Positions 1 through 21,399 of a stretch of DNA of 22,774 nt are shown in pieces. The DNA comes from a virus. The stretch's first letter is position 1. Each line of letters starts with the position of its first letter. The stretch covers positions 1 through 22,774 of IMG/VR virus record IMGVR_UViG_3300044845_000598, one strand, 5' to 3'. The notes beneath the pieces are model-generated. The model ran no database searches. It saw nothing but the letters and a program-made list of their open reading frames with translations, and had not been told where the DNA came from. The position numbers were made by a program, and so were the translations under genes.

Positions 1-153
1 GAATTATTTGAACTTTATGAAAAATATAACATAAGTATTAGCCATGAAGATCAGCACGGTGGGTTTATTCTTGTTAACAATGAAAGTTTATACAGAGACT
101 GGATACAAGAAGCTGCTTTGTGTTTAAAAGAACCTGATGATTTACTTTTTTAA
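1..153 (+). CDS. 3' end of a small phage hypothetical protein (5' truncated by window)
   Basis: An open frame runs from base 1 to a TAA at 151-153 and gives 50 residues, ending in EPDDLLF. The start lies outside the window. The visible part contains the phrase ISHEDQHGGFIL followed by a Trp-containing amphipathic helix. From memory this resembles short conserved proteins of Bacteroidota phages with an ISHED-x-GGFI core, but no function is known to me. It sits 7 bases upstream of the next small gene on the same strand, so it probably belongs to the same transcript. The frame is convincing because it is open to the window edge and its stop abuts the next start. Confidence 0.6.
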   Translation, partial: ELFELYEKYNISISHEDQHGGFILVNNESLYRDWIQEAALCLKEPDDLLF

Positions 154-160
154 CAATTTT

Positions 161-397
161 ATGAAACTATACGAACTAAAAAAATGGCCTAAGATTTGGA
201 AAATAGCTGAAGAAGCTGCTAAAGAACGGAAAGGTAGTAATTATTGTGAAAAAATTTCTTTATCACAGGCTTTTTCATGGATAGATACGGGTTATGATTT
301 TTTATTTTATGAATTGAATTTTGGAAATATTTCTGAAGCTAAGTCACTTTATCCAGAAATGTTTGATACAGAAAAAATTTATGAATTATGGACGTAG
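161..397 (+). CDS. Small hypothetical protein with C-terminal KIYELW tag
   Basis: 78 residues, function not recognised. I chose ATG 161, which follows the upstream stop by 7 bases and has an AT-rich leader. An in-frame ATG at 137 would add eight residues and overlap the upstream gene by 17 bases. The protein is charged and aromatic, with Lys/Trp-rich N-terminal residues (MKLYELKKW) and a central segment SQAFSWIDTGYDFLFYELNF. Its last seven residues, KIYELWT, are shared with four other small proteins in this window. The DNA encoding this tail contains the ATG (388) of the next gene, giving a 10-base overlap and likely translational coupling. The N-terminal MKLYEL resembles the tag but may be chance. 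Confidence 0.65.
   Translation: MKLYELKKWPKIWKIAEEAAKERKGSNYCEKISLSQAFSWIDTGYDFLFYELNFGNISEAKSLYPEMFDTEKIYELWT
374..397 (+). repeat. KIYELW tag element, copy 1
   Basis: Codons AAA ATT TAT GAA TTA TGG ACG TAG encode KIYELWT and the stop of the upstream gene. The ATG at 388-390 inside the element starts the next gene. Near-identical elements occur at 592, 3345, 6301 and 6477. The preceding residues DTE match the NTE before copy 2. Confidence 0.75.
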
Positions 398-615
398 CAA
401 TTAAAGGCGATAGAAAAAATGGTTATAAGATAATTGAATATTTAATATCTTTAGGGGGAGCTAATCCTTATAATTATAGAGGAGATCATGAATACAGTTA
501 TTATTATATAAATAAATATAATAACATTACTAGCCGTGATTTGGATAAAGGCCATCGATATAAATATTTATCAAAAATACCTAATACAGAAAAAATTTAT
601 GAATTATGGGCTTAA
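388..615 (+). CDS. Small hypothetical phage protein with C-terminal KIYELW tag
   Basis: 75 residues. The start ATG 388 lies inside the tag element of the preceding gene, and the N-terminal text (MDVAIKGDRKNG) reads like a natural start. A central LISLGGANPYNYRG segment and a Tyr-rich strand SYYYINKYNNI suggest a small mixed alpha/beta fold. I recall similar LGG-N-containing small proteins in Bacteroidota phages, but no function is known to me. The last seven residues are KIYELWA, matching the upstream gene although the bodies of the two proteins are unrelated. It is followed after 10 bases by the DNA polymerase gene, so it probably shares that transcript. Confidence 0.7.
   Translation: MDVAIKGDRKNGYKIIEYLISLGGANPYNYRGDHEYSYYYINKYNNITSRDLDKGHRYKYLSKIPNTEKIYELWA
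592..615 (+). repeat. KIYELW tag element, copy 2
   Basis: Codons AAA ATT TAT GAA TTA TGG GCT TAA encode KIYELWA and the stop. The internal ATG at 606 opens only an 11-codon frame and is not in frame with the polymerase start at 626. Here the tag is therefore kept without serving as the next gene's start. Confidence 0.75.
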
Positions 616-625
616 AATATAGAAC

Positions 626-2674
626 ATGGCAAATTATATAATTACAAGGAACAAAGAAGTTTTCTCTAAAATCGGTAATTACAATTATTGTAATTTAGAA
701 GATATGGTGCTTCCAGAAACAATAGCTGTAGATACGGAAACTACGGGGTTAAATGCTCATTTAGGTGATTATATATTTTCTGTTCAAATAGGTACAGGTA
801 AAAATAACTATATCATTGATTTAGAGCATAGAGATACACCTTTATTACAAGGAAATCAAATTTATTTCAAAGAATTAATACCCTATTTAAATACTAAGAC
901 ATTAATATTTCATAATTCTTGCTTTGATATAAAATTTTTTTATAAAGAAAACTATTATCCAGATAGCGTAAGAGATAGTATGATAGCATCTAAATGTCTT
1001 TATAATGGTGTAGATGGTATTTATAGCCATTCGTTTGATGCTGTAATGTCTAGAGAATTAAATCTATCTTATAACAAAGATGTACAAAGTACTATTAATA
1101 AAGTTAGGCTTACAACTAAAAGAAATATAGATTATTCCTTTGATGATGTAGATAGATTATTAGAATTAGAAGCTGCTCTTTTTCAAAAATTATTGAATGA
1201 AGATGCACACGAAAACTATTTATTTCAATGTGAATTTGTAAAAGCACAAGCTTATATGGAAAATTGTGGTTTACAAATATCTTCTAATTTATGGAGACAA
1301 AAATCAGAAAATGATATATTAAATCTTAAAAAAGCTCAAGAAAAGATTAAAGAATATATTTATGATAATCTTCCAAAATTCAGAGTATTACAATTAGATT
1401 TATTTGGTGATAACAAAAAGATTATTTGTAACTTAGATAGTCCTAAACAAATGATTCCAGTATTTAAAGAATTAGGTATTAATACTTGGGATGAGAGAGA
1501 AGAAAAAGACTCTATATCTGAAGGAATAATTAATAAGTCTAAACATGAGTTTGTAGATATGTGGCTTAACTATCAAGGACACAACCATAATGTATCTACA
1601 TTTGGTCTTAATTTGTTAGATAAAATACATAATGAAAGAATTTACTCAAACTTTAATATTTTAGCAGAAACAGGCAGAATGTTGTCAAGAAAAGGAAGTA
1701 TAAATTTCTTAAATTTTCCTTCTAATAAAGAAACAAGAAGTTGTTTTAAATCTGCAAAAGGCTGGAAATCAATTGGTTGCGACTATGATAGTCAAGAGGC
1801 AAAAATCCTGGCTTGGGAGTCTCAAGATGAAAATGCTAAATTAAATGTAATTCATGGTAGAGATACACATAGTTTACTTGCTAGACAAATATTTGAAGAA
1901 TTAAAAGATTTGTCTGACAAAGAAATAAAGACTCAACATAATGATAAGCGGCAGCTTGGTAAAATCGCCGGATTTTGTTTTGGATTTGGTGGTTCTGGAT
2001 TTACAGCAGCAGTACAATTAAATGTTTCTTTAGAATTAGGCAATAAAATGTATGAAGCTTACAGAACTTTATATAAAGATGTATTTACTTGGGGAGAAAG
2101 AAATTTTCAAGAAGCTATAAAAGTAGGATATTTAGTAGGTACTCATGGTTTTAGAAGATATTTTTCTCAATTTGATGTTTACAAATCTTTAGAGACTGAA
2201 ATAACGACTATTGATTGGGACCAATATAAAATAGGTAAACAAGAATGGAAAAAGATTAAACAGTCTAAAGAAGATGATACTCAAATAATAAAATATAAAA
2301 GCAAATACCCAAAAGAATCCTCTTATTATTCTTCTAAAGTAAAAATAGTTTCTAAATTCTTTTCAATGAAATCTGGATACTTTAATATGGTTCTTAATTG
2401 GCCTATACAAAGTTGTGCTTCATTTATGACTAAAAAAGCTGTTAGTGAAGTGTTTAAAAGAATAAAAGAAAATAATCATCTAGAAGTAGTTAAAATATCT
2501 AATTTTATATATGATGAGATTTTGCTTGATGCTCCAGAAGAATTAGCCGAACAATATAGACTTATTTTACAAGATGAAATGAGAAAATCAGGTAATTTTT
2601 ATGTAAACAATGATGCTGAAATCAAAATAACTTGTGACGCTAATGTAGCAGATGATTGGTATTCGACTAAATGA
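626..2674 (+). CDS. Family A DNA polymerase with 3'-5' exonuclease domain (phage type)
   Basis: 682 residues, the probable phage replicative polymerase; T7 gp5 is about 700. The N-terminal proofreading exonuclease shows Exo I VDTETTGL (D36, E38), Exo II HNSCFDIKFF and an Exo III-like YSFDDVDRLLEL. The palm has motif A as GCDYDSQEAKILAW (D386). The fingers have motif B with R442, K446, F450 and F454, aligning with E. coli Pol I R754, K758, F762 and Y766. Motif C is FIYDEILLD (Y629, D630, E631). Two departures from the family norm are Phe for Tyr766 and Tyr for the His of HDE in motif C. All catalytic carboxylates are present, so the enzyme should be active. The start ATG 626 follows an A-rich leader. 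A small tagged gene precedes it and an HNH gene follows. Confidence 0.95.
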   Translation: MANYIITRNKEVFSKIGNYNYCNLEDMVLPETIAVDTETTGLNAHLGDYIFSVQIGTGKNNYIIDLEHRDTPLLQGNQIYFKELIPYLNTKTLIFHNSCFDIKFFYKENYYPDSVRDSMIASKCLYNGVDGIYSHSFDAVMSRELNLSYNKDVQSTINKVRLTTKRNIDYSFDDVDRLLELEAALFQKLLNEDAHENYLFQCEFVKAQAYMENCGLQISSNLWRQKSENDILNLKKAQEKIKEYIYDNLPKFRVLQLDLFGDNKKIICNLDSPKQMIPVFKELGINTWDEREEKDSISEGIINKSKHEFVDMWLNYQGHNHNVSTFGLNLLDKIHNERIYSNFNILAETGRMLSRKGSINFLNFPSNKETRSCFKSAKGWKSIGCDYDSQEAKILAWESQDENAKLNVIHGRDTHSLLARQIFEELKDLSDKEIKTQHNDKRQLGKIAGFCFGFGGSGFTAAVQLNVSLELGNKMYEAYRTLYKDVFTWGERNFQEAIKVGYLVGTHGFRRYFSQFDVYKSLETEITTIDWDQYKIGKQEWKKIKQSKEDDTQIIKYKSKYPKESSYYSSKVKIVSKFFSMKSGYFNMVLNWPIQSCASFMTKKAVSEVFKRIKENNHLEVVKISNFIYDEILLDAPEELAEQYRLILQDEMRKSGNFYVNNDAEIKITCDANVADDWYSTK

Positions 2675-2723
2675 TAGGAAACTATGAGTATAATTTATTA
2701 ATTTTGATTAAAAATTATAAATC

Positions 2724-3086
2724 ATGGCAAAAAGAATAACAATAAAACCTCGTAATGCAGGAACTATGACAGAATCTGCATTTTGGGGTATGATAAGATC
2801 TACATTAAGAAATAAAAGTAGATGGTGGAAACCAAGAACTTTAGCTTTAGAATCTGTAAGAAGACCTTATACAGGATCTAATAAAAGAGCTAAGTGGGAA
2901 TTTAAATGTAGTGTTTGTAATAAATACTACATGCAAAAAGAAATGGAAGTACATCATTTACAAGAAGTAGGAACTTTAAAATGTGCTAATGATTTGCCTC
3001 AATTTGTAGAAAATTTATTTACAGAAACTGGTTGGGCGTGCTTATGTAAACAATGTCATTTAAAAGAACATAAAAAATTGTTATAA
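2724..3086 (+). CDS. HNH-type protein (putative HNH endonuclease)
   Basis: 120 residues. The basic N-terminal half (KRITIKPR, ending in WWKPRTLALESVRRPY) could contact DNA. The C-terminal half has the HNH/zinc layout: C62-x2-C65, the VHH pair at H77-H78, a candidate Asn at N89, then C108-x2-C111 with H112 and H116 in LCKQCHLKEHK. In the HNH family this beta-beta-alpha metal fold cuts DNA. Its place next to the polymerase suggests a role in DNA processing, but it could equally be a free-standing selfish nuclease. A 49-base AT-rich gap separates it from the polymerase. No extra DNA-binding modules such as NUMOD are visible. Confidence 0.75.
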   Translation: MAKRITIKPRNAGTMTESAFWGMIRSTLRNKSRWWKPRTLALESVRRPYTGSNKRAKWEFKCSVCNKYYMQKEMEVHHLQEVGTLKCANDLPQFVENLFTETGWACLCKQCHLKEHKKLL

Positions 3087-3110
3087 CAAAAAACTCAAAA
3101 ATGATAAAAA

Positions 3111-3368
3111 ATGAATAAAGATTGGCAAATAGGAGACTTAAAAAATATTCCTTTGGAAATTATTGCTAAAATGTTAGAAAGACAAGAAGAACAAGGTTTT
3201 GGTAGAAACTTGGAAATTCTTCAAGAAAACAGGAATTCAAGTGTGGGCTTTAGATGGCAAAATACTGTAGAAGGATATGATTTTTGGAGCAACATTTTAA
3301 GTCATGGAGAATACTATTTATTTTTTCAAAAATATCCAAAAAATAAAATTTATGAATTATGGGCATAG
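3111..3368 (+). CDS. Small hypothetical protein with C-terminal KIYELW tag
   Basis: 85 residues, function not recognised. The N-terminal third (DWQIGDLKNIPLEIIAKMLE) looks like an amphipathic helix. The middle, with GFRWQNTVEGYDFWSNIL, is aromatic. The phrase FWSNIL.HGEY is typical of small Bacteroidota phage proteins I have seen, but no role is known to me. The C terminus is NKIYELWA. The tag DNA holds the ATG (3359) of the next gene, a 10-base overlap. The start ATG 3111 follows an A-rich stretch; the ATG at 3102 is out of frame and leads nowhere. Confidence 0.7.
   Translation: MNKDWQIGDLKNIPLEIIAKMLERQEEQGFGRNLEILQENRNSSVGFRWQNTVEGYDFWSNILSHGEYYLFFQKYPKNKIYELWA
3345..3368 (+). repeat. KIYELW tag element, copy 3
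   Basis: Codons AAA ATT TAT GAA TTA TGG GCA TAG encode KIYELWA and the stop. The ATG at 3359-3361 within it starts the cysteine-cluster gene. The residues before the tag are KN, as in copies 4 and 5 (TN, RN), unlike the TE of copies 1 and 2. Confidence 0.75.
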
Positions 3369-3904
3369 AAGAACAAGCGTTTGAGTTTTTACCCAGAGTT
3401 GAAGAAGTTTTTAAAAATATCCCCGAAGATGTACAAATAGAAGCTGCTAACAAGCTTATAGATGATATTTTTGAAAAGAATGATATAGATGCTCAAGTAC
3501 AATGTGGAAAACAAGAATGTTCTTTCTGTTGTCACGATCAGATTATGCTTTCTAGTCAAGAAGCAGAATATATTAAGAAGAATGCTACGTATGAGATTAA
3601 TCAAGAGCTTTTAGAGAAACAAAGAAATGCAGTAGATTTTAAAAAACTATCTTTTGCAGACAGAGCTTGTATATTTCTAAAAGAAGGCAAATGTTCAATA
3701 TATGAGCATAGACCATTAATCTGCAAGTCACATAATGTAAAAAAAGGTGTAGATCCGAATAACTGTATAGTTACTGATGGTTTAACAAAAGAACCTAACG
3801 AACAAGCTTATTCTGTACCAGTACAATCTATATTATATTATTTTGCTATGAAAGATTTTCCTGAATTGAAATCAACATTTGATCATGATTTTTTAAAAAA
3901 TTAA
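3359..3904 (+). CDS. YkgJ-family cysteine cluster protein
   Basis: 181 residues. The pattern C49-x4-C54-x2-C57-C58, then C104 (ACIFL), C112 (GKCSIYEHRPLIC) and C122 matches the YkgJ/UPF0153 family, whose members bind a metal or Fe-S cluster through these cysteines and carry the characteristic RP-x2-C. The family's biochemical role is not settled. It has been seen in many bacteria and phages as a stand-alone protein. Residues 1-45 are a helical extension before the first cysteine. The start ATG 3359 lies inside the KIYELW element of the preceding gene, so translation is probably coupled. A short AT gap follows before the next gene. Confidence 0.85.
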   Translation: MGIEEQAFEFLPRVEEVFKNIPEDVQIEAANKLIDDIFEKNDIDAQVQCGKQECSFCCHDQIMLSSQEAEYIKKNATYEINQELLEKQRNAVDFKKLSFADRACIFLKEGKCSIYEHRPLICKSHNVKKGVDPNNCIVTDGLTKEPNEQAYSVPVQSILYYFAMKDFPELKSTFDHDFLKN

Positions 3905-3924
3905 AAATTTAAATAACTAAAAAT

Positions 3925-4290
3925 TTGGACATAAATAAAATTTATAACAGTTTTCAAGAAGAATTTATTAAAAAGATTGAAATACTCCCTAAAGGAGTTT
4001 TTTTTATTTTAGTAGGTCAAAGTTTATTAAAAGATATGGAAGACAAGCCTGTTATTGTGCCTGTTTTATCTGATACTAAAAACATTGCAGATTTAAAAAT
4101 AATTATTAACAAAATTATAGAAAAATCTGGAAAAGACATTCAAATAAAATGTTTTATGTCTTTTGATGTAAAAGAAAATGAGCTTATAACTTCTTTAGAA
4201 TATTTAGGAGAAGAAGTAAGTAATCAGGAAAAAATTAGTGTAAGTATTAATAGAGAAAAAATTGTAGACAAATCTTATCAAATATTTTAA
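3925..4290 (+). CDS. Hypothetical protein with TTG start
   Basis: 121 residues, not recognised. There is no ATG near the 5' end of the frame. TTG 3925, preceded by an A-rich leader, is the only sensible start. The next in-frame ATG would remove about a quarter of the protein. The sequence alternates beta-like and helical segments (GVFFILVGQSLL, PVIVPVLSD, IQIKCFMSFDV), suggesting a small globular alpha/beta fold, cytoplasmic. The stop overlaps the next small ORF by one base (TAATG at 4288-4292). A terminator-like hairpin lies within its first 80 bases. Confidence 0.6.
   Translation: MDINKIYNSFQEEFIKKIEILPKGVFFILVGQSLLKDMEDKPVIVPVLSDTKNIADLKIIINKIIEKSGKDIQIKCFMSFDVKENELITSLEYLGEEVSNQEKISVSINREKIVDKSYQIF
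3984..4005 (+). other. Terminator-like hairpin inside the 5' part of a gene
   Basis: ACTCC (3984-3988), a CTAAA loop and GGAGT (3994-3998) are followed by a run of T to 4005. The shape is that of a weak intrinsic terminator but it lies about 60 bases inside the coding frame. The stem is only 5 bp, so it may be a coincidence of the codons for Leu-Pro-Lys-Gly-Val. Confidence 0.3.
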
Positions 4291-4442
4291 TGTTTTATCT
4301 TTTAGTGTTTGTGGTTATAGGGTGTAGTATAGAATTAGGGTTTAAACCTAGATTTTATTTTACACATCAAAAAACAATATTTTTATTTTACGGAAGAAAA
4401 ACTAGAAACTATATTCAATTTTTTAAAAATGGAAGAGGATAA
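4290..4442 (+). CDS. Very small hydrophobic-N-terminus protein
   Basis: 50 residues starting MFYLLVFVVIGCS. The N terminus is a hydrophobic stretch followed by Gly-Cys, which could be a membrane anchor or a lipoprotein signal. The rest is basic and aromatic and ends KNGRG. The ATG overlaps the upstream stop by one base and the 3' end overlaps the next gene by 14 bases, so the frame fits a translationally coupled string. No function is recognised. Support comes only from packing and from the lack of another explanation for this stretch. Confidence 0.45.
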   Translation: MFYLLVFVVIGCSIELGFKPRFYFTHQKTIFLFYGRKTRNYIQFFKNGRG

Positions 4443-4605
4443 AGCATTATCACAAACAGTTAATCAGCTCAAAAAAGCTGTAGATAGATATATGAGTGCT
4501 GAACAAGCTATCGTTGAGTATCTAAAGTCTCCCTGGTGGAAAAGAATGTTTTATTACAGAAAATTTCTTAATTTCATGCTTAAACAATTAATAAATTTCC
4601 GATGA
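4429..4605 (+). CDS. Very small helical protein
   Basis: 58 residues starting MEEDKALSQTVNQLKKAV. The N-terminal half is an amphipathic helix with heptad-like spacing. The C-terminal half is basic and aromatic (SPWWKRMFYYRKFL) and could touch a membrane or nucleic acid. It overlaps the preceding ORF by 14 bases and the next by 4 (ATGA at 4602). Not recognised. It is one of three consecutive small genes filling 4290-4781. Confidence 0.5.
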   Translation: MEEDKALSQTVNQLKKAVDRYMSAEQAIVEYLKSPWWKRMFYYRKFLNFMLKQLINFR

Positions 4606-4781
4606 ATACACTTTGGTTTTATTCTTTTATTATTACTATCTTATTAGCAATAATAGACAGAAACGATAAGTTTTCAGAAAAATATCCTAAAACTTTTCCT
4701 TTACTCGGATTAATTTTTATGATAACCACTGTTTTGCTTATCATGTATACGGTTTTTACTTTTTTTCATAATCTTAAATGA
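4602..4781 (+). CDS. Small membrane protein, two predicted transmembrane segments
   Basis: 59 residues. Hydrophobic segment one is WFYSFIITILLAII and segment two LLGLIFMITTVLLIMYTVF, separated by a polar loop (DRNDKFSEKYPKTFP). This predicts a double-pass inner-membrane hairpin. The start overlaps the upstream stop (ATGA) and the end overlaps the helicase start (ATGA at 4778), so it lies inside a coupled operon. A holin-like or superinfection-exclusion role is possible but nothing in the sequence decides this. Confidence 0.5.
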   Translation: MNTLWFYSFIITILLAIIDRNDKFSEKYPKTFPLLGLIFMITTVLLIMYTVFTFFHNLK

Positions 4782-6142
4782 ATTACTGTAAATTAAGTAA
4801 AGAAGAGGTTAAATATCTTTTAGCTATTCCTAATGTGAATGATAGAAAGAGTGCTATTCAAAAGAAATTTATTGATAATGCTATTAAGCATAAGCATACT
4901 CTTACTATTATTCCTGTAGGGACAGGTAAAACGCACATGGGTATTACTTACATACAAAGACTTAGAAAAATAACTAATGAACGAGTAATTGTAATTGTAC
5001 CAAGTGGAGCATTAAAAGAGAATTGGGAACATAAGTTACAAGGAATAGAGAATGTAGATGTGTTTGTAATTAACAGTTATAGTATGTCAGAAGTTCAGTA
5101 TAAGTGTCATACACTTATTGCTGATGAATTGCATAGATATTCTAATGAAGATAGTAAATTCTTTAGTAATATTTTTGATAAAACAGAAAGGTCTTATACC
5201 ATTGGTCTTTCAGCTACGATGGAAGAAAAACATATAAGTTTTCTTGAGTCTAAAGGTATGGAGTCTATAAACTATCTTTCTTTAGAAGAAAGTAATACTT
5301 TAGAAATTACACCAAGAAGTGAAGTATATAATGTTCCTGTTGAGTTTACTAATCCTGAAAAGCTTGAATACTATAATATTCAAAAACAAATAGAAGGTTT
5401 AGGTGATTATTTCAAATGTTTAGAGCTTGGAAATTCAATTAACTTTATGCTACCAAAAGCTTTATCTGACGCAAATGTTAGAAAGCAAATGGTTAAAGAT
5501 TTAGTTAAGAAAGGTTTCTTAAAAGATTTAGAGCCAGGAAGCCCAGAATTTAACCAGGCTGTCTTTAAACTTGATGGAGTGATACTTGGTAAGGCAGCTA
5601 AGTTTATGCAGCTCATAAAGCAAAGAAGCTTGTTATTGTATAATGCTGAAAATAAATTCAAAGTTTTAGACAAAATTTTAGATGAAGAAAATCAATCAGC
5701 ATTTATATTCTTTCAAAGTATTTCTACTATGGATTTAATGCAAAGACCTGACTTTTTACCTTTTCATTCTAAGCTTACAAAAAAGCAAAAGAAAGAAAGC
5801 ATGAAAGAGTTTCTTACTTCTAATAAACATATTGGTAGTATTAAGTCTATAGGTGAAGGTTTTGACATAGAAACAGAATGTGCTACATTAGGTGTACCTT
5901 TTAAAGATGTAGAAGTAGTTATTAACTTTGGTTATAATTCTACTAAAACTTCTAGAATACAAGCTAATGGCAGGAGTCAACGTATTAATAATCAGAAACT
6001 TGACAAAATAGCAAGAAGTTATACTTTGTACGTAGACGATTTTAAATTTGCTGGTGAAATTATTTCAAGTCAAGAGTTAGTGTGGGTAAAGAAACGCAAT
6101 AATGGATTAAAATTTGTACAAATTAAAGAAGTAGAAGTATGA
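4778..6142 (+). CDS. Superfamily 2 DNA/RNA helicase (DEAD/DEAH-like)
   Basis: 454 residues with a full SF2 motif set. Motif I is PVGTGKT (46-52), motif II DELH (116-119), motif III SAT (145-147), a motif V-like SIGEGFD (about 357-363) and motif VI QANGRSQR (395-402) with the arginine finger. The first RecA-like domain covers about residues 25-180 and the second about 290-450, with a helical insert between. Such phage helicases unwind or remodel DNA or RNA during replication, recombination or transcription; the substrate cannot be told from sequence. DELH in place of DEAH is a normal variation. It overlaps the upstream small membrane-protein gene and the downstream SH3-like gene by 4 bases each. 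Confidence 0.93.
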   Translation: MNYCKLSKEEVKYLLAIPNVNDRKSAIQKKFIDNAIKHKHTLTIIPVGTGKTHMGITYIQRLRKITNERVIVIVPSGALKENWEHKLQGIENVDVFVINSYSMSEVQYKCHTLIADELHRYSNEDSKFFSNIFDKTERSYTIGLSATMEEKHISFLESKGMESINYLSLEESNTLEITPRSEVYNVPVEFTNPEKLEYYNIQKQIEGLGDYFKCLELGNSINFMLPKALSDANVRKQMVKDLVKKGFLKDLEPGSPEFNQAVFKLDGVILGKAAKFMQLIKQRSLLLYNAENKFKVLDKILDEENQSAFIFFQSISTMDLMQRPDFLPFHSKLTKKQKKESMKEFLTSNKHIGSIKSIGEGFDIETECATLGVPFKDVEVVINFGYNSTKTSRIQANGRSQRINNQKLDKIARSYTLYVDDFKFAGEIISSQELVWVKKRNNGLKFVQIKEVEV

Positions 6143-6324
6143 AATTAGTGAAATGTTTAGATAACAATCGTGTAGAAGATTTCTTAAGTATTGGAAGAAT
6201 TTATGAAGTAATTGAAGAGGATTCAACTCATTATAAGTTAAAAAATTATCACTCTCTTTGTACGTTTTTTAAAGAAAGATTTGAGATAGTGTATACAAAT
6301 AAAATATATGAATTATGGATGTAA
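6139..6324 (+). CDS. SH3-like small phage protein with KIYELW tag, paralogue A
   Basis: 61 residues. The body (VKCLDNN, FLSIGRIYEVIEED, FFKERFEIV) is a beta-rich pattern common in small phage and plasmid proteins that usually end near RFEIV. Here the protein continues with YTNKIYELWM. It is a clear paralogue of the next gene: they share VKC, a GRIYEVIE or GKIYKVIE core, the RFEIV strand and the tail. The start overlaps the helicase stop by 4 bases. The tag DNA provides the ATG of the next gene. No function is known to me. Confidence 0.75.
   Translation: MKLVKCLDNNRVEDFLSIGRIYEVIEEDSTHYKLKNYHSLCTFFKERFEIVYTNKIYELWM
6301..6324 (+). repeat. KIYELW tag element, copy 4
   Basis: Codons AAA ATA TAT GAA TTA TGG ATG TAA encode KIYELWM and the stop. 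The Ile codon is ATA instead of ATT, a synonymous change. The ATG at 6315-6317 starts the paralogous next gene. Confidence 0.75.
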
Positions 6325-6500
6325 AATGTATTGGTAATTCAGGTTGTAAATATGTTTTAACTGTTGGGAAAATCTATAAAGTAATTGAAAGTGATTTAGA
6401 ATGCTATAGAATTGTAGATGATCGTAAGGCTAAAATAAAATTTTACAAATGGAGATTTGAAATAGTTAATAGAAATAAAATTTATGAATTGTGGACTTAA
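6315..6500 (+). CDS. SH3-like small phage protein with KIYELW tag, paralogue B
   Basis: 61 residues, homologous to the preceding gene through a tandem duplication. Its N terminus (MDVKCIGNSG) matches the usual start of this small phage family, so ATG 6315 is right even though it lies inside the upstream tag. The body contains VGKIYKVIESD and KWRFEIV, where such proteins normally end. An extra RNKIYELWT follows. The tag has TTG for Leu, so no ATG is formed at the usual place, and the next gene begins separately at 6513. Confidence 0.75.
   Translation: MDVKCIGNSGCKYVLTVGKIYKVIESDLECYRIVDDRKAKIKFYKWRFEIVNRNKIYELWT
6477..6500 (+). repeat. KIYELW tag element, copy 5
   Basis: Codons AAA ATT TAT GAA TTG TGG ACT TAA encode KIYELWT and the stop. 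TTG replaces TTA (synonymous), which destroys the overlapping ATG. The downstream gene does not start here, so the peptide is conserved where the start codon is not needed. Confidence 0.75.
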
Positions 6501-7298: not shown

Positions 7299-8534
7299 AT
7301 GAAATTAGTAAAACAAATACAGGTAGACAAAAACCACTCTTATTATAAAGAGTGCGACCGTATTTGTTTTGCTTCTAAAAACCTATATAATCAAGCATTG
7401 TATAGGATTACACAAAAGCATAGTTTAGAAAATGCTTATTTTAACTACTTTGATTTAACTAAAGAATTAAATCGTGAAAATCAAGTAGATTTTAGAGCTA
7501 TGCAAAGTAGTGTTTCTCAGCAAACTTTAATGTTATTAGATAAATCATACAAGTCTTTCTTTAATGCCTTCAAAGATTATTCTGTTAATCCTCATAAGTA
7601 TAAAGCTAAACCAAAGTCTCCTCATTTTAAAGATAAGACAAAAGGAAGGTTTCAGGCTACGTTCACAGAATGTGCAATAAGCAAAAAGTTTCTAAAAAAA
7701 GGACTCATTAAATTAGCAGGAGTTGATTTTACAATACCAAATACTTTTGAAAAGGTAAATCAAGTTAGGATAATTCCAAAATCAAATAGCTTATATTGTA
7801 TTGAAATTGTATATGAAAAACAAGAAATATCTTTAGTTAAAAGCGAAAACTATGCTGGAATAGATATTGGTTTAAACAACTTAGCCACTGTTGTCACTAC
7901 AGACTGTAATGCTTTTATAATTAACGGGAAACCACTAAAGTCCATAAATCAGTATTATAACAAAAAACTAGCTAAGTATAAGTCAGAGTTGCCATTATTG
8001 TCAAAAAATATTGTAACTAAAGAAGGTAAAAGAATCCAAGTTAAAACATCTAATAAAATAAAAAAACTAACATGTAAAAGAAACAACAAGATAAAAGACT
8101 ATTTGCATAAAGCAAGTACAAAAGTGGTTCAGACGTTGAAGCAAGCTAATATTTCTAAAATTGTCATAGGTCAAAACAAAGACTGGAAGCAATCTATAAA
8201 TATTGGCAAAAAAAACAATCAAAAATTTGTTTCAATTCCACATGCCAATTATATAAATATGATTACTTATAAATCGTTATTAGAAGGAATAGAAGTGGTT
8301 ACTCGTGAAGAGTCTTACACTTCAAAATGTTCTTTCTTAGACAATGAAACTATAAGGAAGCACAATGAGTATAAAGGCAAAAGAATAAAGCGAGGTATGT
8401 TTAAATCAGCTATGGGGTTAAAGATAAATGCTGATGTAAATGGTGCTTGCAATATTTTAAGAAAAGAAGTTCCTAATGCTTTTGCTAAGGGAATAGAGGG
8501 GATATTGGTTTTCCCAATTAAATATTCTTTATAA
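7299..8534 (+). CDS. tnpB: TnpB / IS605-family OrfB RNA-guided nuclease
   Basis: 411 residues, normal TnpB length. Seen: RuvC-I AGIDIGLNNLATV (D189), the IVIGQNKDWKQ strand (288-298), REESYTSKCSFLD (336-348) and RuvC-III INADVNGACNILRK (D379). The N-terminal part (FASKNLYNQALY, QQTLMLLDKSYKSFF) is the usual TnpB helical/wedge region. TnpB proteins are programmable DNA nucleases guided by an omega-RNA from the element's 3' end. In this subfamily the position where RuvC-II Glu is expected holds Gly (G291); E337 or E338 may substitute. The second CxxC of the zinc ribbon is absent. No TnpA is present, so the element would be mobilised in trans or be fixed. The gene carries its own promoter. Confidence 0.93.
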   Translation: MKLVKQIQVDKNHSYYKECDRICFASKNLYNQALYRITQKHSLENAYFNYFDLTKELNRENQVDFRAMQSSVSQQTLMLLDKSYKSFFNAFKDYSVNPHKYKAKPKSPHFKDKTKGRFQATFTECAISKKFLKKGLIKLAGVDFTIPNTFEKVNQVRIIPKSNSLYCIEIVYEKQEISLVKSENYAGIDIGLNNLATVVTTDCNAFIINGKPLKSINQYYNKKLAKYKSELPLLSKNIVTKEGKRIQVKTSNKIKKLTCKRNNKIKDYLHKASTKVVQTLKQANISKIVIGQNKDWKQSINIGKKNNQKFVSIPHANYINMITYKSLLEGIEVVTREESYTSKCSFLDNETIRKHNEYKGKRIKRGMFKSAMGLKINADVNGACNILRKEVPNAFAKGIEGILVFPIKYSL

Positions 8535-8548: not shown

Positions 8549-8577
8549 ATTAAATAATTTTTAACAAAATTTATACC

Positions 8578-10701
8578 ATGGAATACTTAGAACATATAAG
8601 AGCCTTAAAAGAAAAGTTAAAAAATCCTGTAAAAGGTATTCCTATTAGTTTTCCTACATTTAGAAAGTATTACCCGTATTTTGAGAAAGGGCATAGAATA
8701 TTATTAGCTGCAGACACGGGTACGACCAAGGCTCAGCCAAATTCTGCTGTAATTTATACACCAGAAGGATATAAAACTATGGGAGAAATACAAGTAGGTG
8801 ACTATGTAATAACTAAATCAGGAGAGCCTACAGAGGTACTTGAAATTTATCCTTTTGATAATTTAGATATTTATAAAATTACTTTTTCAGATGGAACATC
8901 AACAGAATGTTGTGAAGATCATTTATGGGAAGTAAGGGCTAGATCTAAAAATAAATATGATATACGAAGTACTAAAGAATTATTAAAATTAAAACTTATT
9001 GGAAAAACACCTAAAAATAATATAAGATATGAATATACAGTAGATTTGTGTGAAGAAGTTCAGCATACTCAAAAAAATTTAAGTATAAAACCTTATCTTT
9101 TAGGATATTTGTTAGGTAATGGTTGTTTTGGGCACGTGACTTCTATAGTAAGTCATATAAATGATTTAGAAGAAATAATTACATATTTAAATCTTACGAA
9201 TCATTTTACCTTTACTAGACAAAAATTTCAACCTACTTTACCTAATAATGCAAGAATAAATATTTCTAATAAAATAAAACCTATTTTAGATAATTTAAAC
9301 CTTTTAGGAAAGAAGTCTCAAAATAAGTTTATTCCTGAAGAATATTTTTATTCTACTATAGAAGATAGGTATGATTTACTTGCGGGATTATTAGACTCTG
9401 ATGGATCTATTAATGATTCAGGGCATAAGTGCAAAATAAGATACTCATCTACTTCTAAACAATTAGCTTTAGATATACAAAAATTAGTAAGAAGTTTGGG
9501 AGGTATTTGTACAATAGTTGAATGCACAAGTGATCAATATAAAAATAATGTTATATACAATTGTAGTATAAGAACTAGAAAAAACCCTTTTAAGTTAAAA
9601 AGAAAATCAGATGTTTTTGATAAAGTAGGAGGTTTTTCGTACTTTTTTAGAAAAGGTATTGCTAATATAGATTATGTTGGTAAAAAAAACAGTAAATGCA
9701 TTTTAGTTAAAGACTCTTCTCATTTATACTTAACTGATGACTATACTGTTACCCATAATACTACGTTAACTATTAAATGTTTTATTCTTGATATAATAGC
9801 TTATTGTGTTAATAATCCTACAGTTAGTGCTAAAATATATTACTTTTCTATTGAAAATCATAGAAGTGTAGTTATTAGTAAATTTTATCTTTATTTAATA
9901 GCAAAGTATTTGGGAAGAGAATACACTCTTACAGAGTTAATGAATCCTTCTCAACAACAAACTATTGATGATATAGAAGCTATGACACCTAAAATGGAAA
10001 AAATAAAACAAAGTTTAGTAATAATAGATTCTATACATGCTCCTACAGAAATTTATCAGTATATGATAAAAGAAATGGAGCAGTATGGAAAATTAACTAC
10101 TAACTCTAAAGGAGAAAGAACTTTTACTTATTTTAATCCTGAACAATATGTTTTTTGTATAACTGATACTATCAACGCTCTTAATCCTGACCCAGGTTTA
10201 AGTGAATATGATAGTATTAAAAGATGGAGTAAAAATTATTGTAAATTAGGGCTTAGTAATATATACTCTACGATTGTTATTAATATATCTCAGCTAGATA
10301 ACTCGGTTAGGGCTAATATGTATGCTAATACAGGACAAAGAGTGGAAGAAAAACATGAACCAACTTTAGGACAATTAGCTGATGTAAAGTCTACTCCGGC
10401 TGATCATACTCTTGTTATGAGTTTATTTCTACCTTATAGATACGGGATAAACACTTATATGGATTATGATATAAAAAGACTAGATAATCATTATATCAGA
10501 CTAAGTATTATTAAGAACAACTTTGGTTTAGCTGGTAGAGAAGTAGGTGCTCATTTGTACTTTGATGGTAACAAAGGTGATTATGAAGAACTCCCAGATG
10601 CAGCAGATAAAGCTGCTGTTGATGCTTTTTTAGATAAGAAAGGAATAGGAAAACTTGTAGCTAATTCAGGTGCAAAAAAAGTGGATAAGTTCTTGATTTA
10701 G
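8578..10701 (+). CDS. DnaB-like replicative helicase interrupted by an intein
   Basis: 707 residues: N-extein 1-51, intein 52-394, C-extein 395-707. The spliced product would be 364 residues. Joining the exteins rebuilds a P-loop, ADTGTTK|TTLTIK, with the intein between Lys and Thr. Thr replaces the usual Gly before the Lys. The C-extein has the RecA/DnaB features: FSIENHRS (like the SxE of DnaB), a strand VFCITDTINAL (D530) for Walker B, NISQLDNSVR (the DnaB SQL-x-R-S-V-like segment), then LGQLADVKSTPADHTLVMSLFLPYRYG, matching the DnaB LSDLR...ADVVMFLYR region. The DnaB N-terminal domain is missing, as in several phage helicases. The enzyme would unwind DNA ahead of the polymerase, probably with the primase at 13120. 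It follows the TnpB element by about 30 bases. Confidence 0.88.
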   Translation: MEYLEHIRALKEKLKNPVKGIPISFPTFRKYYPYFEKGHRILLAADTGTTKAQPNSAVIYTPEGYKTMGEIQVGDYVITKSGEPTEVLEIYPFDNLDIYKITFSDGTSTECCEDHLWEVRARSKNKYDIRSTKELLKLKLIGKTPKNNIRYEYTVDLCEEVQHTQKNLSIKPYLLGYLLGNGCFGHVTSIVSHINDLEEIITYLNLTNHFTFTRQKFQPTLPNNARINISNKIKPILDNLNLLGKKSQNKFIPEEYFYSTIEDRYDLLAGLLDSDGSINDSGHKCKIRYSSTSKQLALDIQKLVRSLGGICTIVECTSDQYKNNVIYNCSIRTRKNPFKLKRKSDVFDKVGGFSYFFRKGIANIDYVGKKNSKCILVKDSSHLYLTDDYTVTHNTTLTIKCFILDIIAYCVNNPTVSAKIYYFSIENHRSVVISKFYLYLIAKYLGREYTLTELMNPSQQQTIDDIEAMTPKMEKIKQSLVIIDSIHAPTEIYQYMIKEMEQYGKLTTNSKGERTFTYFNPEQYVFCITDTINALNPDPGLSEYDSIKRWSKNYCKLGLSNIYSTIVINISQLDNSVRANMYANTGQRVEEKHEPTLGQLADVKSTPADHTLVMSLFLPYRYGINTYMDYDIKRLDNHYIRLSIIKNNFGLAGREVGAHLYFDGNKGDYEELPDAADKAAVDAFLDKKGIGKLVANSGAKKVDKFLI
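8731..9759 (+). mobile_element. Probable class 3 intein with LAGLIDADG endonuclease, in helicase Walker A
   Basis: 343 residues (host residues 52-394). Block A begins AQPNSAVIYTPEG with Ala1 instead of Cys/Ser, then IQVGDYVI. Block B ECCEDHLWEV places Trp (host W117, intein W66) two residues after the His. Block F KCILVKD places Cys (C374, intein C323) where other inteins have Asp. Block G is TVTHN with Thr (T392, intein T341) before His-Asn, and the +1 residue is Thr. This Trp-Cys-Thr triad with a non-nucleophilic residue 1 defines class 3 inteins. The inserted endonuclease has LLGYLLGNG (174-182) and LAGLLDSDG (268-276). The first motif has Asn181 where the catalytic Asp is expected, so cutting may be lost. 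Confidence 0.88.
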
Positions 10702-10723
10702 AACTTATTAATTAGTATATTTA
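10693..10723 (+). promoter_or_regulatory. Possible Bacteroidota-type promoter before the Sak4-like gene
   Basis: TTG at 10693-10695 is followed after 20 bases by TATATTTA (10716-10723), one base off the TAnnTTTG -7 consensus. It overlaps the helicase stop and leaves a 25-base AT-rich leader before ATG 10749. The gap here (10702-10748) is unusual for this packed operon, which supports a promoter. The match is imperfect. Confidence 0.35.
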
Positions 10724-10748
10724 CATATAAAAACAATCAATTATTAAC

Positions 10749-11537
10749 ATGTTCGACTTAACATTTGATGTTCAGAAACCTACAGTTTTTGAACCAAGAT
10801 TTTTAATCTTGTATTCAACCCCTAAGGCTGGGAAAAGCTCAAATTTATTACAATTACCAAAATCTTTACATATAGATTTAGAATCTGGCGGAGGGTTTTA
10901 TGAAGGTAATAATATAGACGTTTCTAAATTAGCTAAACAAGTACAAAAACATCCTATAGCAATTCTTAGAGAATTAGTTACAAAAATTAAAGAAGCTAAT
11001 ATTGCTAATAATAATGTTCCTGTATATGATTTTATAACTTTAGACAGTGCAACAATTTTAGAAGATTACGCTGCTTTATTAGCTACTCAAACTTATAAAG
11101 CTTCTAAAATAGGTGCAACTTTTTCAGGTAAAAATGTAGTGACTGATCTTCCAAATGGCGGAGGGTATTATTTTTTGCGTGAAAGTTTTGAAGAATTATA
11201 TACTCCTTTTATAGAACTTGCTGGAAAGTGTTTTACACTTGTAGTACATACAAAAGATAATGTAATTAATAAAGATGGTAAAGATTCTACTGTAGCAGAA
11301 CTTAATCTTACTGGTAAATCTAAAATGATTACTGCTTCCAAAGCAGATGCTATTGGTTTACTTTATAGAAGTAAAAAAGAAAAAAATACCAACATTCTTT
11401 CTTTTGTAGGAGGAGACTCTAATCCTTCTGTAGGATGTAGATTACCATATTTAGCTAATAAAGAGTTTGTCTTATCTACATTTGAAGATGGTGTGATAAA
11501 AACAAATTGGGAAACTATATTCCCTTCTATTAAATAA
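10749..11537 (+). CDS. Sak4-like RecA-fold ATPase (phage recombination, AAA_24 type)
   Basis: 262 residues. The Walker A motif is STPKAGKSS (23-31), followed by the strand HIDLESGGGF (41-50), a Sak4-type signature. Walker B is FITLDSAT (D99). A sensor-like strand FTLVVHTKD follows, and the C terminus has GGDSNPSVGCRLPYL. Sak4 proteins are short RecA-like single-strand annealing or ATPase factors of phage recombination that work with a phage SSB; the next gene is a candidate for that partner. A probable own promoter lies upstream. An A-rich linker separates it from the next gene. It could otherwise be a more general RecA/KaiC-like NTPase, but the start, length and context favour Sak4. Confidence 0.8.
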   Translation: MFDLTFDVQKPTVFEPRFLILYSTPKAGKSSNLLQLPKSLHIDLESGGGFYEGNNIDVSKLAKQVQKHPIAILRELVTKIKEANIANNNVPVYDFITLDSATILEDYAALLATQTYKASKIGATFSGKNVVTDLPNGGGYYFLRESFEELYTPFIELAGKCFTLVVHTKDNVINKDGKDSTVAELNLTGKSKMITASKADAIGLLYRSKKEKNTNILSFVGGDSNPSVGCRLPYLANKEFVLSTFEDGVIKTNWETIFPSIK

Positions 11538-11551
11538 TTTAATTTTTTTTC

Positions 11552-11580
11552 AAACAATAAAACAAAACAAAACAAAAACA
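11552..11580 (+). promoter_or_regulatory. A-rich leader with AAAAC repeats, probable strong translation start
   Basis: About 29 bases made almost wholly of A and C, with tandem AAAAC units, end directly at ATG 11581. Bacteroidota lack Shine-Dalgarno use and favour A-rich unstructured leaders, so this should give strong initiation. The following gene has a codon choice (TTG Leu, AAG Lys at its start) unlike its neighbours. Confidence 0.5.
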
Positions 11581-12336
11581 ATGGACTTGAAAGAGATGAT
11601 GTTGACTACAGGTCAATTTATGACAGTAGCAAATGTAAAAAATGGAGGAAGTTTGGAAGACAAGATTGTACTTGCTGGTGCAACTCCAGTAAAAGTAAAA
11701 TTGAATGTATCTAAAGTAGAAAAAATCAAGTTTGATTTGAGATATACTTATGATGCTACTAAGCAAAAAGGTAAGTTTGACCTATCACAAGATTTCTTTG
11801 ACTCAGTAGCTGGTTTGAATGAAAAAGGCACAGGATTTAGTGAGTTCTACATTGCTGGTACTAATCAAACAGTGTTAGTATTGTGTACAGAAGGCGTAAG
11901 TAATGATTACGGTGTAACTCCTAAAATTCTTAACTCTAAAAAAGGAGACAAGAAATCTTTAGGATTTGTAGCGGTATCTCTTGAGTTTTATGCTCAAAAA
12001 TCAGAGTTATTCCCTAAAAATGAGGCTGGCACATGGTTATTCAATTTACCAGAAACTGCTTTACCAGGTGTTTATTCTATCGAACCTGCTACTATTGAGC
12101 TAGAGGGTACAGTAGAAGATAATTCTCCTGCAATAACTGAAAATATTGTAGCTCCAGTAGAAAGTGTATGTGAAGAAGAACCTGTTGTAGATGTACCTTC
12201 TGATATTCCTGCATGGGTACAAGCTGATGTAACTGCTGAAGTTACTGCTCAAGAAGAAGCTATCGCTAATTTTGAAAGCAATACTCCTGCTCCTTCAATG
12301 GTAGATTATGCTAATCAAGTTTTAGCATCTATTTAA
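11581..12336 (+). CDS. Probable highly expressed replication accessory protein (candidate ssDNA-binding)
   Basis: 251 residues. Residues 1-170 look beta-rich and globular (VKVKLNVSKVEKIKFDLRY, EFYIAGTNQTVLVLCTEG). Residues about 180-251 are a low-complexity acidic tail rich in Glu, Ala, Pro and Val (VEDNSPAITENIV, EEEPVVDVPSDIP). A compact beta domain plus an acidic tail resembles the layout of phage ssDNA-binding proteins, and the gene lies between Sak4 and the primase. No family motif is seen, so this is inference. The strong A-rich leader and the following hairpin terminator suggest high expression. Alternatives are a structural or other abundant protein. Confidence 0.7.
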   Translation: MDLKEMMLTTGQFMTVANVKNGGSLEDKIVLAGATPVKVKLNVSKVEKIKFDLRYTYDATKQKGKFDLSQDFFDSVAGLNEKGTGFSEFYIAGTNQTVLVLCTEGVSNDYGVTPKILNSKKGDKKSLGFVAVSLEFYAQKSELFPKNEAGTWLFNLPETALPGVYSIEPATIELEGTVEDNSPAITENIVAPVESVCEEEPVVDVPSDIPAWVQADVTAEVTAQEEAIANFESNTPAPSMVDYANQVLASI

Positions 12337-12341
12337 TTTAT

Positions 12342-12380
12342 AAATACCCTTGAAATATAGGGTATTTTTTCTTTTTTTTT
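12342..12380 (+). terminator. Intrinsic terminator
   Basis: AAATACCCT (12342-12350), an 8-base loop and AGGGTATTT (12359-12367) form a 9-bp perfect stem followed by a long T tract to 12380 broken by one C. It ends the transcript of the preceding gene or reduces read-through to the next. Confidence 0.8.
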
Positions 12381-12402
12381 AATTTTAAAATAATAATAAT
12401 TT

Positions 12403-13074
12403 ATGTTTCAGGCTAACACTAGAAAACAAACAGAAAGTACAGGTAAACAATATTTATATGAAGTGGCTCCAGATGGTATCTGGAAAGGAATGAGAGTCTT
12501 AGATTGGAAGTTGTCTGATGATAAAAGAAGTATTTCTTTTGAAATGATTCAGGAAACAAGTGGTAAATTTCACACAGAAACATTTTACTCTCCAAACTTT
12601 GTAGAATCTGCTGATAGAAAAGCAGATAGTGCTAAAAGAATAGAGATAATGCTTTCTCAATTAGAGGATATGTTTAGTGCTCTTGTACCAGCAAATAATA
12701 ATAATGGTACAAGATGGGGTACAGATTCTCCTGCTTTTGAAACATTTGAAGAGTTCTGTAACTTTTACACTAATCAAATAGATAAAGAGAAAATGCCATT
12801 GTTTGATTTCAAAGCCCTATACAAAGCAGGAATAGTTTATAAAAATGCTGGAGATAAATTTGCTAAAGCTCCTAAAAGAGAAAGAGGTGGTCAACCTTTT
12901 ATTTCTTCAGAGTATTTACCTAGAACACTATCTGCTGATTATGATATTAATGAGGGTAGAGGTAACTACAGAAAATATTTAACATTTAAAACAGAAGAAT
13001 TAGAAGCTACTGTTGTTGATGATTTACAAATACCTGCTAGTCAAATAGGTGGTACTGATTCTCTTCTATTTTAA
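12403..13074 (+). CDS. Replication-region hypothetical protein, starts MFQAN
   Basis: 223 residues, not recognised. N terminus MFQANTRKQTESTGK, then a beta-rich part (GIWKGMRVLDWKLSDDKRSISFEM, GKFHTETFYSPNF), a helical middle (IEIMLSQLEDMFSALV, FEEFCNFYTNQID) and an ordered segment with ERGGQPFISSEYLPRTL. The C terminus is acidic and hydrophobic (EATVVDDLQIP, DSLLF), reminiscent of SSB tails that recruit partners. It is bracketed by two hairpin terminators, so it is expressed almost as its own unit. Like the downstream primase it begins MFQAN. A second DNA-binding or primase-partner protein is possible but unproven. Confidence 0.7.
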   Translation: MFQANTRKQTESTGKQYLYEVAPDGIWKGMRVLDWKLSDDKRSISFEMIQETSGKFHTETFYSPNFVESADRKADSAKRIEIMLSQLEDMFSALVPANNNNGTRWGTDSPAFETFEEFCNFYTNQIDKEKMPLFDFKALYKAGIVYKNAGDKFAKAPKRERGGQPFISSEYLPRTLSADYDINEGRGNYRKYLTFKTEELEATVVDDLQIPASQIGGTDSLLF

Positions 13075-13085
13075 TATTACTAATT

Positions 13086-13119
13086 AAAAAGGAGATGTTA
13101 AAGTCTCCTTTTTATTTTT
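13086..13119 (+). terminator. Intrinsic terminator directly before the primase start
   Basis: AAAAAGGAGA (13086-13095), loop TGTTAAAG and TCTCCTTTTT (13104-13113) make a 10-bp perfect stem. A T-rich tail runs to 13119 and the primase ATG follows immediately at 13120. With no room for a promoter between them, it may act as an attenuator or RNA-processing site for the primase message. Confidence 0.75.
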
Positions 13120-14079
13120 ATGTTTCAAGCGAATAAGCAAATATTCAAAACAAGTACAAAAGCTTTATTAGAGACTGTAAATCAATTACATGTTTTAGAA
13201 TATTACTTATCTCAACCTATTGTTTTAAATGAGAATATTAAATCTCCTATAAGACATGATCCAAATCCAGGTTGTAGATTTTGTATAGACGCTGATAGCA
13301 ATGTAATTTTATTTGATTATTCAAGAGGCACATCTCACAATATAGTGAGTGTTGTTGCTGAAAAAATAGGAATTGATTACATGGAAGCTTTAGCAGAAAT
13401 TCAAAAAACATTTGTAGTTAAAAATACAAATTATGTAAAACCAGAAAAGTTAATAGCTCCAGATAGAGTTCCTTTTAAGATATTTATTAAAAGAAAAGAA
13501 ATTCAAGAAAGAGATTTAAAATTCTGGAGTATAGGAAATGTAGAATTTACTAAAGAAGATTTTGATTTTTATAATATAATAAGTTTAGAAGTCTATTCCA
13601 TTAATGATATGGTGTTTAGACCTTCACAGGCTTATTTATTTAACTTTCCTTCTTTTAGACAAATATACAGACCAGACCTTAGAAAAGATGCCAGAGGTTT
13701 AGAAGCAAGATATAGAAGTGATACGATGCTTGGTTTACATGTAATTGGAAAGATTACTAATTTTGATTACATATTTGTAAACAAAAGTTGCCGAGATGGT
13801 ATATTCTTACATAAACTAGGCTTTAACTCTGCTTTTGTCCTCAAAGAAGGACATAAATATCTTCCTGAACAAATTGAATACTTACAACAATTTAAAAAAG
13901 TGATATTACTTTATGACCCTGATGAGACTGGTGTGGCTAATTCTACTAAGTGGTGTGAGCAATTAGGTTGGAGTCCTTTTTTCTATTTAGAAGCTAAGGA
14001 TACAGTAGAGATGTTAGAGAATTTCCCTAAAGAGTATGTAGAGCAAATATTAAATAACAAACTAAACGAAGTTGTATAA
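13120..14079 (+). CDS. TOPRIM DNA primase (DnaG-like, phage)
   Basis: 319 residues. An N-terminal DnaG-type segment reads SPIRHDPNPGCRF...VILFDYSRG (42-70), the usual SPFR-D-NPS...D layout of phage primases. The C-terminal TOPRIM has YIFVNKSCRDGIFLHKLGF (217-235) and the acidic motif VILLYDPDETGV (261-272; D266, D268). In the first TOPRIM motif the usual Glu is replaced by a KS-type phrase (NKSCRD), a variant I have seen in other phage primases. The catalytic zinc ribbon of DnaG is absent. It should make RNA primers for the polymerase, with the DnaB-like helicase at 8578 as partner. It begins MFQAN like the preceding gene. Its stop overlaps the next frame if that begins at TTG 14072. Confidence 0.85.
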   Translation: MFQANKQIFKTSTKALLETVNQLHVLEYYLSQPIVLNENIKSPIRHDPNPGCRFCIDADSNVILFDYSRGTSHNIVSVVAEKIGIDYMEALAEIQKTFVVKNTNYVKPEKLIAPDRVPFKIFIKRKEIQERDLKFWSIGNVEFTKEDFDFYNIISLEVYSINDMVFRPSQAYLFNFPSFRQIYRPDLRKDARGLEARYRSDTMLGLHVIGKITNFDYIFVNKSCRDGIFLHKLGFNSAFVLKEGHKYLPEQIEYLQQFKKVILLYDPDETGVANSTKWCEQLGWSPFFYLEAKDTVEMLENFPKEYVEQILNNKLNEVV

Positions 14080-14386: not shown

Positions 14387-14712
14387 TGCAAAATTTATAT
14401 GCGTTACACTATCAACTGGATCAAATAGGTCCTAATTTAGAAACTGTTTTAGAGTTTTTAAATAAAAAAATAGACAGTACCAATCCTGGTAGTCTATTAC
14501 TTATAAGAGAAGAAGCTAGATTGCTTCTTAATGTAGCAAGTAAGTGTCACTTTAGTGCAGATTACTACTACCGTAAACTTGGTAAGAGAGTAGGAGAAGA
14601 GTATGCTTTACTTTCTTCTTTAAGAGAATATACAGAGATGGTGAAAAAAGACTGTGATACATTACTTTATTCTTTAAGCAATTCAATTAATTATTATAAA
14701 AACGAGAGATGA
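14386..14712 (+). CDS. Small helical hypothetical protein
   Basis: 108 residues, predicted all-helical (LETVLEFLNKKID, LLLIREEARLLLNVASKC, EYALLSSLREYTEMVKKDC). Not recognised. ATG 14386 overlaps the previous stop and the 3' end overlaps the MoxR start (ATGA at 14709), so translation is coupled to the AAA+ gene. A role as an adaptor or chaperone for the MoxR/VWA pair is a guess from position. Confidence 0.7.
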   Translation: MQNLYALHYQLDQIGPNLETVLEFLNKKIDSTNPGSLLLIREEARLLLNVASKCHFSADYYYRKLGKRVGEEYALLSSLREYTEMVKKDCDTLLYSLSNSINYYKNER

Positions 14713-15752: not shown

Positions 15753-15760
15753 AAACAAAT

Positions 15761-20900: not shown

Positions 20901-21397
20901 TAACATTTGAAAAATTTTTAGAAAAATACAGGCCTATTACTAATCATTTTAGCTCTGATTTAGAAGAAATAAGATTTGAGACTTATGGTGAGGAGTACAG
21001 ATATGTATTAGCTCAAGATAGTGATTTTATATGGACATCAGTAAGCAGTGATAATGAGACTACTTATATTCTACCGGGAAAACACCTAGTTAATAGGAGT
21101 CATTATTATGTTTGTACAAATCCTTGGACAAATGAAGAAGAAATAGTAAATGACAATGAAATGATTTCTGTAGAAGATTCTATAAAAGCTTGTTTAGATT
21201 TTTTTCAAACCCTTGGTTATAGTTTAAATGCAAATGATGTTGAAGAGTATTTTAAAAAACTTTTTCCAGAACCAACTCAAGAAATAACATTAGGTGATGC
21301 TAAATATACAGCTATTGACTATTGGGAAATTACACACAAAGAAATTGAAGAAGACGAAGAAGATTTAATGCATAATTTTTACTTAAACTTAATTTGA
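20897..21397 (+). CDS. Hypothetical protein
   Basis: 166 residues, acidic. The N-terminal half has beta segments with aromatic residues (DFIWTSVSSDNETTYILPGKH, given in parts: FIWTSVSSD and TYILPGKHLV) and ends in a helical, very acidic C terminus (EITHKEIEEDEEDLM). Not recognised. It starts in a 4-base overlap with the previous gene and its TGA lies 2 bases before the next ATG. Confidence 0.65.
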   Translation: MITFEKFLEKYRPITNHFSSDLEEIRFETYGEEYRYVLAQDSDFIWTSVSSDNETTYILPGKHLVNRSHYYVCTNPWTNEEEIVNDNEMISVEDSIKACLDFFQTLGYSLNANDVEEYFKKLFPEPTQEITLGDAKYTAIDYWEITHKEIEEDEEDLMHNFYLNLI

Positions 21398-21399
21398 AC

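Follow-up and report, generated by a model that had tools for sequence, protein, structure and literature searches.

The window and its five tailed genes

The window, the whole stretch of DNA analyzed here, is the 22.8-kb virus record IMGVR_UViG_3300044845_000598 and contains 38 gene-like ORFs. The closest named-phage relatives of its DNA polymerase are Crassvirales polymerases, at about 26% identity, and the enzyme is 40–45% identical to the polymerases of IMG/VR contigs L006–L013. Judged by this polymerase likeness, the window is a fragment of a crAss-like phage that includes the replication side. Five of the 38 ORFs terminate in KIYELW, one further residue, and a stop codon (ends 397, 615, 3368, 6324, and 6500), all exactly where an earlier note on this DNA had placed them. 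The six-residue cores occupy positions 374–391, 592–609, 3345–3362, 6301–6318, and 6477–6494, and the codon between core and stop is ACG, GCT, GCA, ATG, and ACT in copies 1–5, respectively. The genes and their tails are as follows.

137–397, plus strand: small gene 1, start more likely the ATG at 161; tail KIYELWT at 374–394, stop codon TAG
374–397, plus strand: tail copy 1, AAA ATT TAT GAA TTA TGG ACG TAG
388–615, plus strand: small gene 2, 75 aa; tail KIYELWA at 592–612
592–615, plus strand: tail copy 2, AAA ATT TAT GAA TTA TGG GCT TAA
3111–3368, plus strand: small gene 3, 85 aa; body homologous to part of a Bacteroides phage DAC15 protein
3345–3368, plus strand: tail copy 3, AAA ATT TAT GAA TTA TGG GCA TAG
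6139–6324, plus strand: small gene 4, 61 aa, weakly DUF6501-like; tail KIYELWM
6301–6324, plus strand: tail copy 4, AAA ATA TAT GAA TTA TGG ATG TAA
6315–6500, plus strand: small gene 5, 61 aa, DUF6501-like, predicted SH3-like barrel; tail KIYELWT, predicted to be disordered
6477–6500, plus strand: tail copy 5, AAA ATT TAT GAA TTG TGG ACT TAA

The tailed genes are surrounded by replication, helicase, and nuclease genes, and no shell or capsid gene is present in the window. Between the polymerase gene and small gene 3 lies an HNH endonuclease gene (2724–3086, phrog_1985) with a relative in the crAss-like contig L143. Elsewhere in the window, positions 14709–17104 encode a MoxR-like AAA ATPase (bpMoxR) and, after it, a protein of 447 aa in which a DSSSS motif is possibly of the vWA type; together they make up an AAA+/vWA pair carried by a crAss-like phage. 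Positions 21394–21726 encode a DPBB_1 protein (lytic-transglycosylase-like double-psi barrel) with a hydrophobic N terminus.

Several tails overlap the start of the next gene. The ATG at 388 places the following gene 10 nt inside small gene 1, the gene for a CxxCxxCC protein (3359–3904) begins inside tail copy 3, and small gene 5 begins at 6315, inside tail copy 4. In copy 5, the overlapping start codon has become GTG and begins no gene, as the earlier note had observed; however, copy 2 retains its ATG, at 606, and also starts no gene, only an 11-codon ORF. The codons of the five cores differ only synonymously, by ATT/ATA and TTA/TTG alone, again in agreement with that note. The stop codon of small genes 1 and 3 is TAG. 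Recoding of this codon was considered and rejected: read-through of copy 3 would cross the overlapping CxxCxxCC gene, and TAG ends other genes too.

A sixth exact copy of KIYELW is found neither elsewhere in the window nor on its minus strand. When the tails are shuffled, at most two genes share four residues at fixed C-terminal positions, versus the five observed, and the number of KIYELW-ended ORFs expected from residue frequencies is about 1e-6. The shared end of the five genes is not attributable to chance.

The bodies that precede the tails belong to several families rather than one. Small genes 4 and 5 are paralogues (40% identity, E 2e-8), whereas the body of small gene 2 stands alone. 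The earlier claim that only copies 4 and 5 sit on related bodies is probably too strict: genes 1 and 3 share 33% identity over 49 aa (single-comparison E 0.017) and a common WxxT..GYDF motif, and are probably distant relatives by this alignment. On that basis, the window probably contains about three body families, not four. No convincing family for small gene 1 was found in Pfam or PHROG. The body of gene 3 matches residues 9–81 of a 189-aa protein of Bacteroides phage DAC15, in which other sequence, and no tail, continues after residue 81. In gene 5, the match to the DUF6501 profile stops at profile position 65 of 67, at residue 49, ahead of the tail. The AlphaFold2 model of this protein, built with five homologues, is a five-strand SH3-like barrel whose best PDB matches are SH3, KOW, and YorP (weak, E above 0.04). 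Residues 57–61 have pLDDT values below 50, such that the tail of gene 5 is predicted to be disordered and to lie beyond the domain; this disorder is read from one body, as the AlphaFold2 model of an L022 protein (see below) had a pLDDT of 38.

Recurrence of the tail in other phages

In addition to the five copies in the window, seven copies from three other phage contigs were compared: two from L069, four from L022, and one from L055, giving 12 in total. L069, which was recovered twice independently, by pattern and by homology, is 99.6% identical to window positions 8560–13194. The two phages have in common a replicative-helicase-like gene with an in-frame LAGLIDADG element, a probable intein (8578–10701). 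At 7299–8534, the window has a TnpB-type gene (OrfB_IS605 and Cas12f1-like TNB domains) where L069 has thyX (L069:1280–1951), a swap or insertion between two phages that are otherwise about 99% identical.

In L069, the homologue of the copy-4 protein has a body identical to that of the window up to residue 51, followed by three replaced linker residues (YTN to NRD) and a last residue changed from M to T; within its six core codons there is one change, which is synonymous (GAA to GAG). At the place of copy 5, L069 encodes a 115-aa two-domain protein, the first domain of which is the orthologue of gene 5 (70%) without the tail and the second of which is a paralogue that ends in KIYELWA. Just downstream of this place the gene differs between L069 and the window at 3 of 654 bases, versus 3 of 24 in the tail, and the last L069 tail differs from the tail of window copy 2 at 1 of 24 bases. 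This pattern of differences, read from the two aligned phages, shows that domain and tail travel together, as an exchange of domain plus tail.

The 63.6-kb contig L022 encodes four small proteins that end in NKIYELW*, KCYELW*, NKIYETW*, and RIYELW*, and whose bodies are mutually unrelated by BLASTP. Three of these genes overlap in a row that leads into a helicase homologous to that of the window. Two of the tailed bodies are also found, tail-less and adjacent to each other, within a larger L022 protein of 476 aa. This protein (L022:9496–10926) is composed of tandem small domains, and the same domains are found as single tailed genes nearby. L055 contributes one copy, DKIYELW*. Across all 12 copies, the tail is terminal or at a fixed distance from the C terminus, and the bodies are unrelated by BLASTP apart from the pairs named above. 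Tail-less homologues of these bodies exist, and the tail is missing where the domains are fused internally. As far as can be read from these sequences, three crAss-like lineages are shown to carry the tail at the end of small domains that are unrelated to one another, which makes it portable, and it is lost in internal domains. The terminal recurrence on unrelated bodies elsewhere that the earlier note had looked to is thus borne out by the small proteins of L022 and L055. Its expectation that homologues in relatives would keep the motif holds for L069 and fails for more distant crAss-like homologues, so the tail is not universal.

Scans of the viral collection with the patterns KIYELW, KIYELWx*, KIYELW*, and [KR]IYExW* gave other matches that are nearly all out of frame or internal, the exceptions on real small genes being L022 and L055. 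Two further endings, RIYEKW* on a 180-aa family in four contigs and FKIYELWE* on one 105-aa ORF (L107), each look like a single chance case and were set aside. CrAss-like relatives with a 45%-identical polymerase have no tail, and neither in three larger crAss-like contigs that lack the tail nor in a 122-kb record of a faecal phage do genes share such a terminal motif, low-complexity Thr/Ser runs aside. A search of viral contigs for more relatives of the window genes and of the L022 helicase returned L069 and L022 itself only. Mimicry of a host protein was also considered and rejected: 395 Bacteroidota genomes gave three pattern matches, in none of which a gene clearly terminates in the tail, and therefore no common host protein has it. 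Scanning of a genome collection also yielded no clear terminal case; its only ATG-started matches are ORFs of 8 and 17 codons. A phylogenetic profile, for which the contigs are partial, yielded no partner protein common to the window, L022, and L055 yet absent from tail-less relatives. None of the papers searched mentions KIYELW, and broader literature searches on such a tail were also empty.

Peptide and nucleotide conservation

Among the seven copies of the window and L069, the four variable columns are all third codon positions (hypergeometric P 0.005), and the probability that four random changes would all be synonymous is 0.0001–0.002. Conservation in this set is thus not at the nucleotide level; nucleotide-level conservation is what the earlier note had regarded as telling against a peptide. 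The four L022 copies show no third-position excess (P 0.56), with changes that include I to C, L to T, and K to R, and over all 12 copies the same test is likewise not significant (P 0.12). The L055 copy and the first L022 copy came from a search with degenerate codons and could not have shown a missense change, whereas the other three L022 copies and both L069 copies are free of this bias. The selection on the peptide proposed earlier is supported, in this small sample of sequences, by a synonymous-only core next to a changed linker and body in L069, by recurrence in L022 and L055, and by varying initiation bases.

The main competing explanation, which is possible although we hold it to be less probable than a peptide function, is that the conserved unit is the nucleotide sequence, either a coupling or initiation element or a cassette junction with short homology, and that the peptide is a by-product. 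The ATG in TTATGG would start the next gene, and the upstream AAAA..GAA would help the ribosome. In 8 of the 12 copies the ATG of nnATGG does start the next gene, with an overlap of exactly 7 or 10 nt, and in the three phages compared all overlaps of these lengths are tail copies. Because of this overlap with the next start codon, a nucleotide-level contribution or a dual role of the tail DNA is possible. With the next ATG embedded in ATGG or ATGGTAA, the Trp is therefore forced, and W* arises from ATGGTAA at –7 overlaps in another crAss-like genome too, but there without KIYEL. As read from these junctions, the overlapping start accounts for the final Trp but not for KIYEL. In addition, the peptide is kept in the four copies in which no gene starts (window copies 2 and 5, the last L069 copy, and the first L022 copy), and no common peptide precedes the ordinary stop/start couplings of these and related phages. 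Adenines at –3, –6, –12, and –13 promote translation initiation in Bacteroidota (PMC6847099), and the A at –3 and the A-rich stretch from –14 to –11 would suit such initiation. However, position –6, the third base of the Tyr codon, is A in no copy; position –3, the third base of the Glu codon, is G in two gene-starting copies (L069 copy 1 and L055); and positions –13/–12, in the Lys codon, are GG in the L022 RIYELW copy, where Lys is replaced by Arg. The initiation bases thus vary across copies, whereas the residue is kept or conservatively changed. The Bacteroidota promoter –7 element TAHHTTTG (consensus from PMC6847099) is absent from the tail, by reading of AAAATWTATGAATTATGG. The break between the window and L069 at the tail would suit a cassette junction, but among the L022 copies several of the 18 nt vary, more than homology-driven exchange would allow.

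Two further readings are less probable still. The tail could be a C-terminal degron by which a host protease rapidly removes these early proteins, a reading that we consider improbable: a predicted disordered, hydrophobic-ended C terminus on small proteins would be apt and would be portable across bodies, but an ssrA-like degron has an LAA-type end, whereas the copies end in W, WA, WT, or WM after EL in the canonical form, and six fixed residues that include Lys and Glu exceed the specificity of the known non-polar tail signals. Very unlikely, and disfavoured, is recent duplication only, in which several genes received the 3′ end of one gene, without function and too recently for it to have diverged. 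Three of the window copies match at all 18 nt, and cassette exchange is visible, as such copying would have it; against it stand the exclusively synonymous changes in the window and L069, the fully diverged linkers adjoining the tail, and the same tail in two other distant phages.

A candidate docking tag and its relation to known systems

The shared tails suggest a reusable C-terminal docking tag. The explanation that we favor, with an even chance of being correct, is that KIYELW(x) acts as a short linear motif at the C terminus, docks small accessory proteins on one partner, and has spread as domain-plus-tail cassettes; both the docking and the single partner are inferred. In this view, crAss-like phages encode, on their replication side, small accessory domains that fold on their own; each would carry the tail as a flexible extension, and the tail would dock all of them on one common partner, of phage or host origin. 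Domain and tail would form a cassette that is duplicated and exchanged at gene junctions, and the ATGG at the Trp codon would double as the start of any gene that comes immediately after. The copies are few and come from only three lineages, and the overlap with the next ATG in 8 of 12 is not required by a pure peptide function. A more specific version, based on analogy and rather doubtful, is that KIYELW is a capture tag that recruits a varying repertoire of small proteins to a single assembly encoded by the phage, whether the virion, the replication complex, or another compartment; it would then be the C-terminal equivalent of the T4 capsid targeting sequence or of encapsulin cargo peptides.

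Small phage accessory proteins are mostly of unassigned function and look unrelated. If the docking motif is real, such proteins could be classed by the partner they share through the tag, not by fold, and one partner would be a foothold on a whole set of crAss-like host-takeover or assembly proteins. The tails also show domain-plus-tail cassettes swapped at overlapping gene junctions.

The capsid targeting sequence of the T4 internal proteins IPI–IPIII is a short shared peptide that is portable to other proteins (PMC7697877). KIYELW is similar in being a short peptide common to otherwise unrelated small phage proteins. The T4 sequence, however, is N-terminal, about 10 aa long, and removed by the head protease, whereas KIYELW is C-terminal in all copies and lies among replication genes; the comparison is an analogy only. 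With overlapping stop/start coupling (ATGA, ATGGTAA), the tails have in common that the start of the next gene lies inside the tail codons in most copies, and they differ from the ordinary couplings described above in their shared upstream peptide. The bacterial sliding-clamp motif QL[SD]LF is likewise short, often C-terminal, and has a hydrophobic-aromatic end, but its defining Gln is absent in 12 of 12 copies, which have K/R-I/C-Y-E-L/T-W instead. Encapsulin cargo-loading peptides are short C-terminal sequences on unrelated cargo that are recognized by one partner. They are encoded beside an HK97-fold shell gene, whereas the KIYELW genes have replication, helicase, and nuclease neighbors, and to our knowledge KIYELW resembles no encapsulin cargo peptide in sequence; the likeness is one of arrangement, a short C-terminal peptide carried by unrelated proteins.
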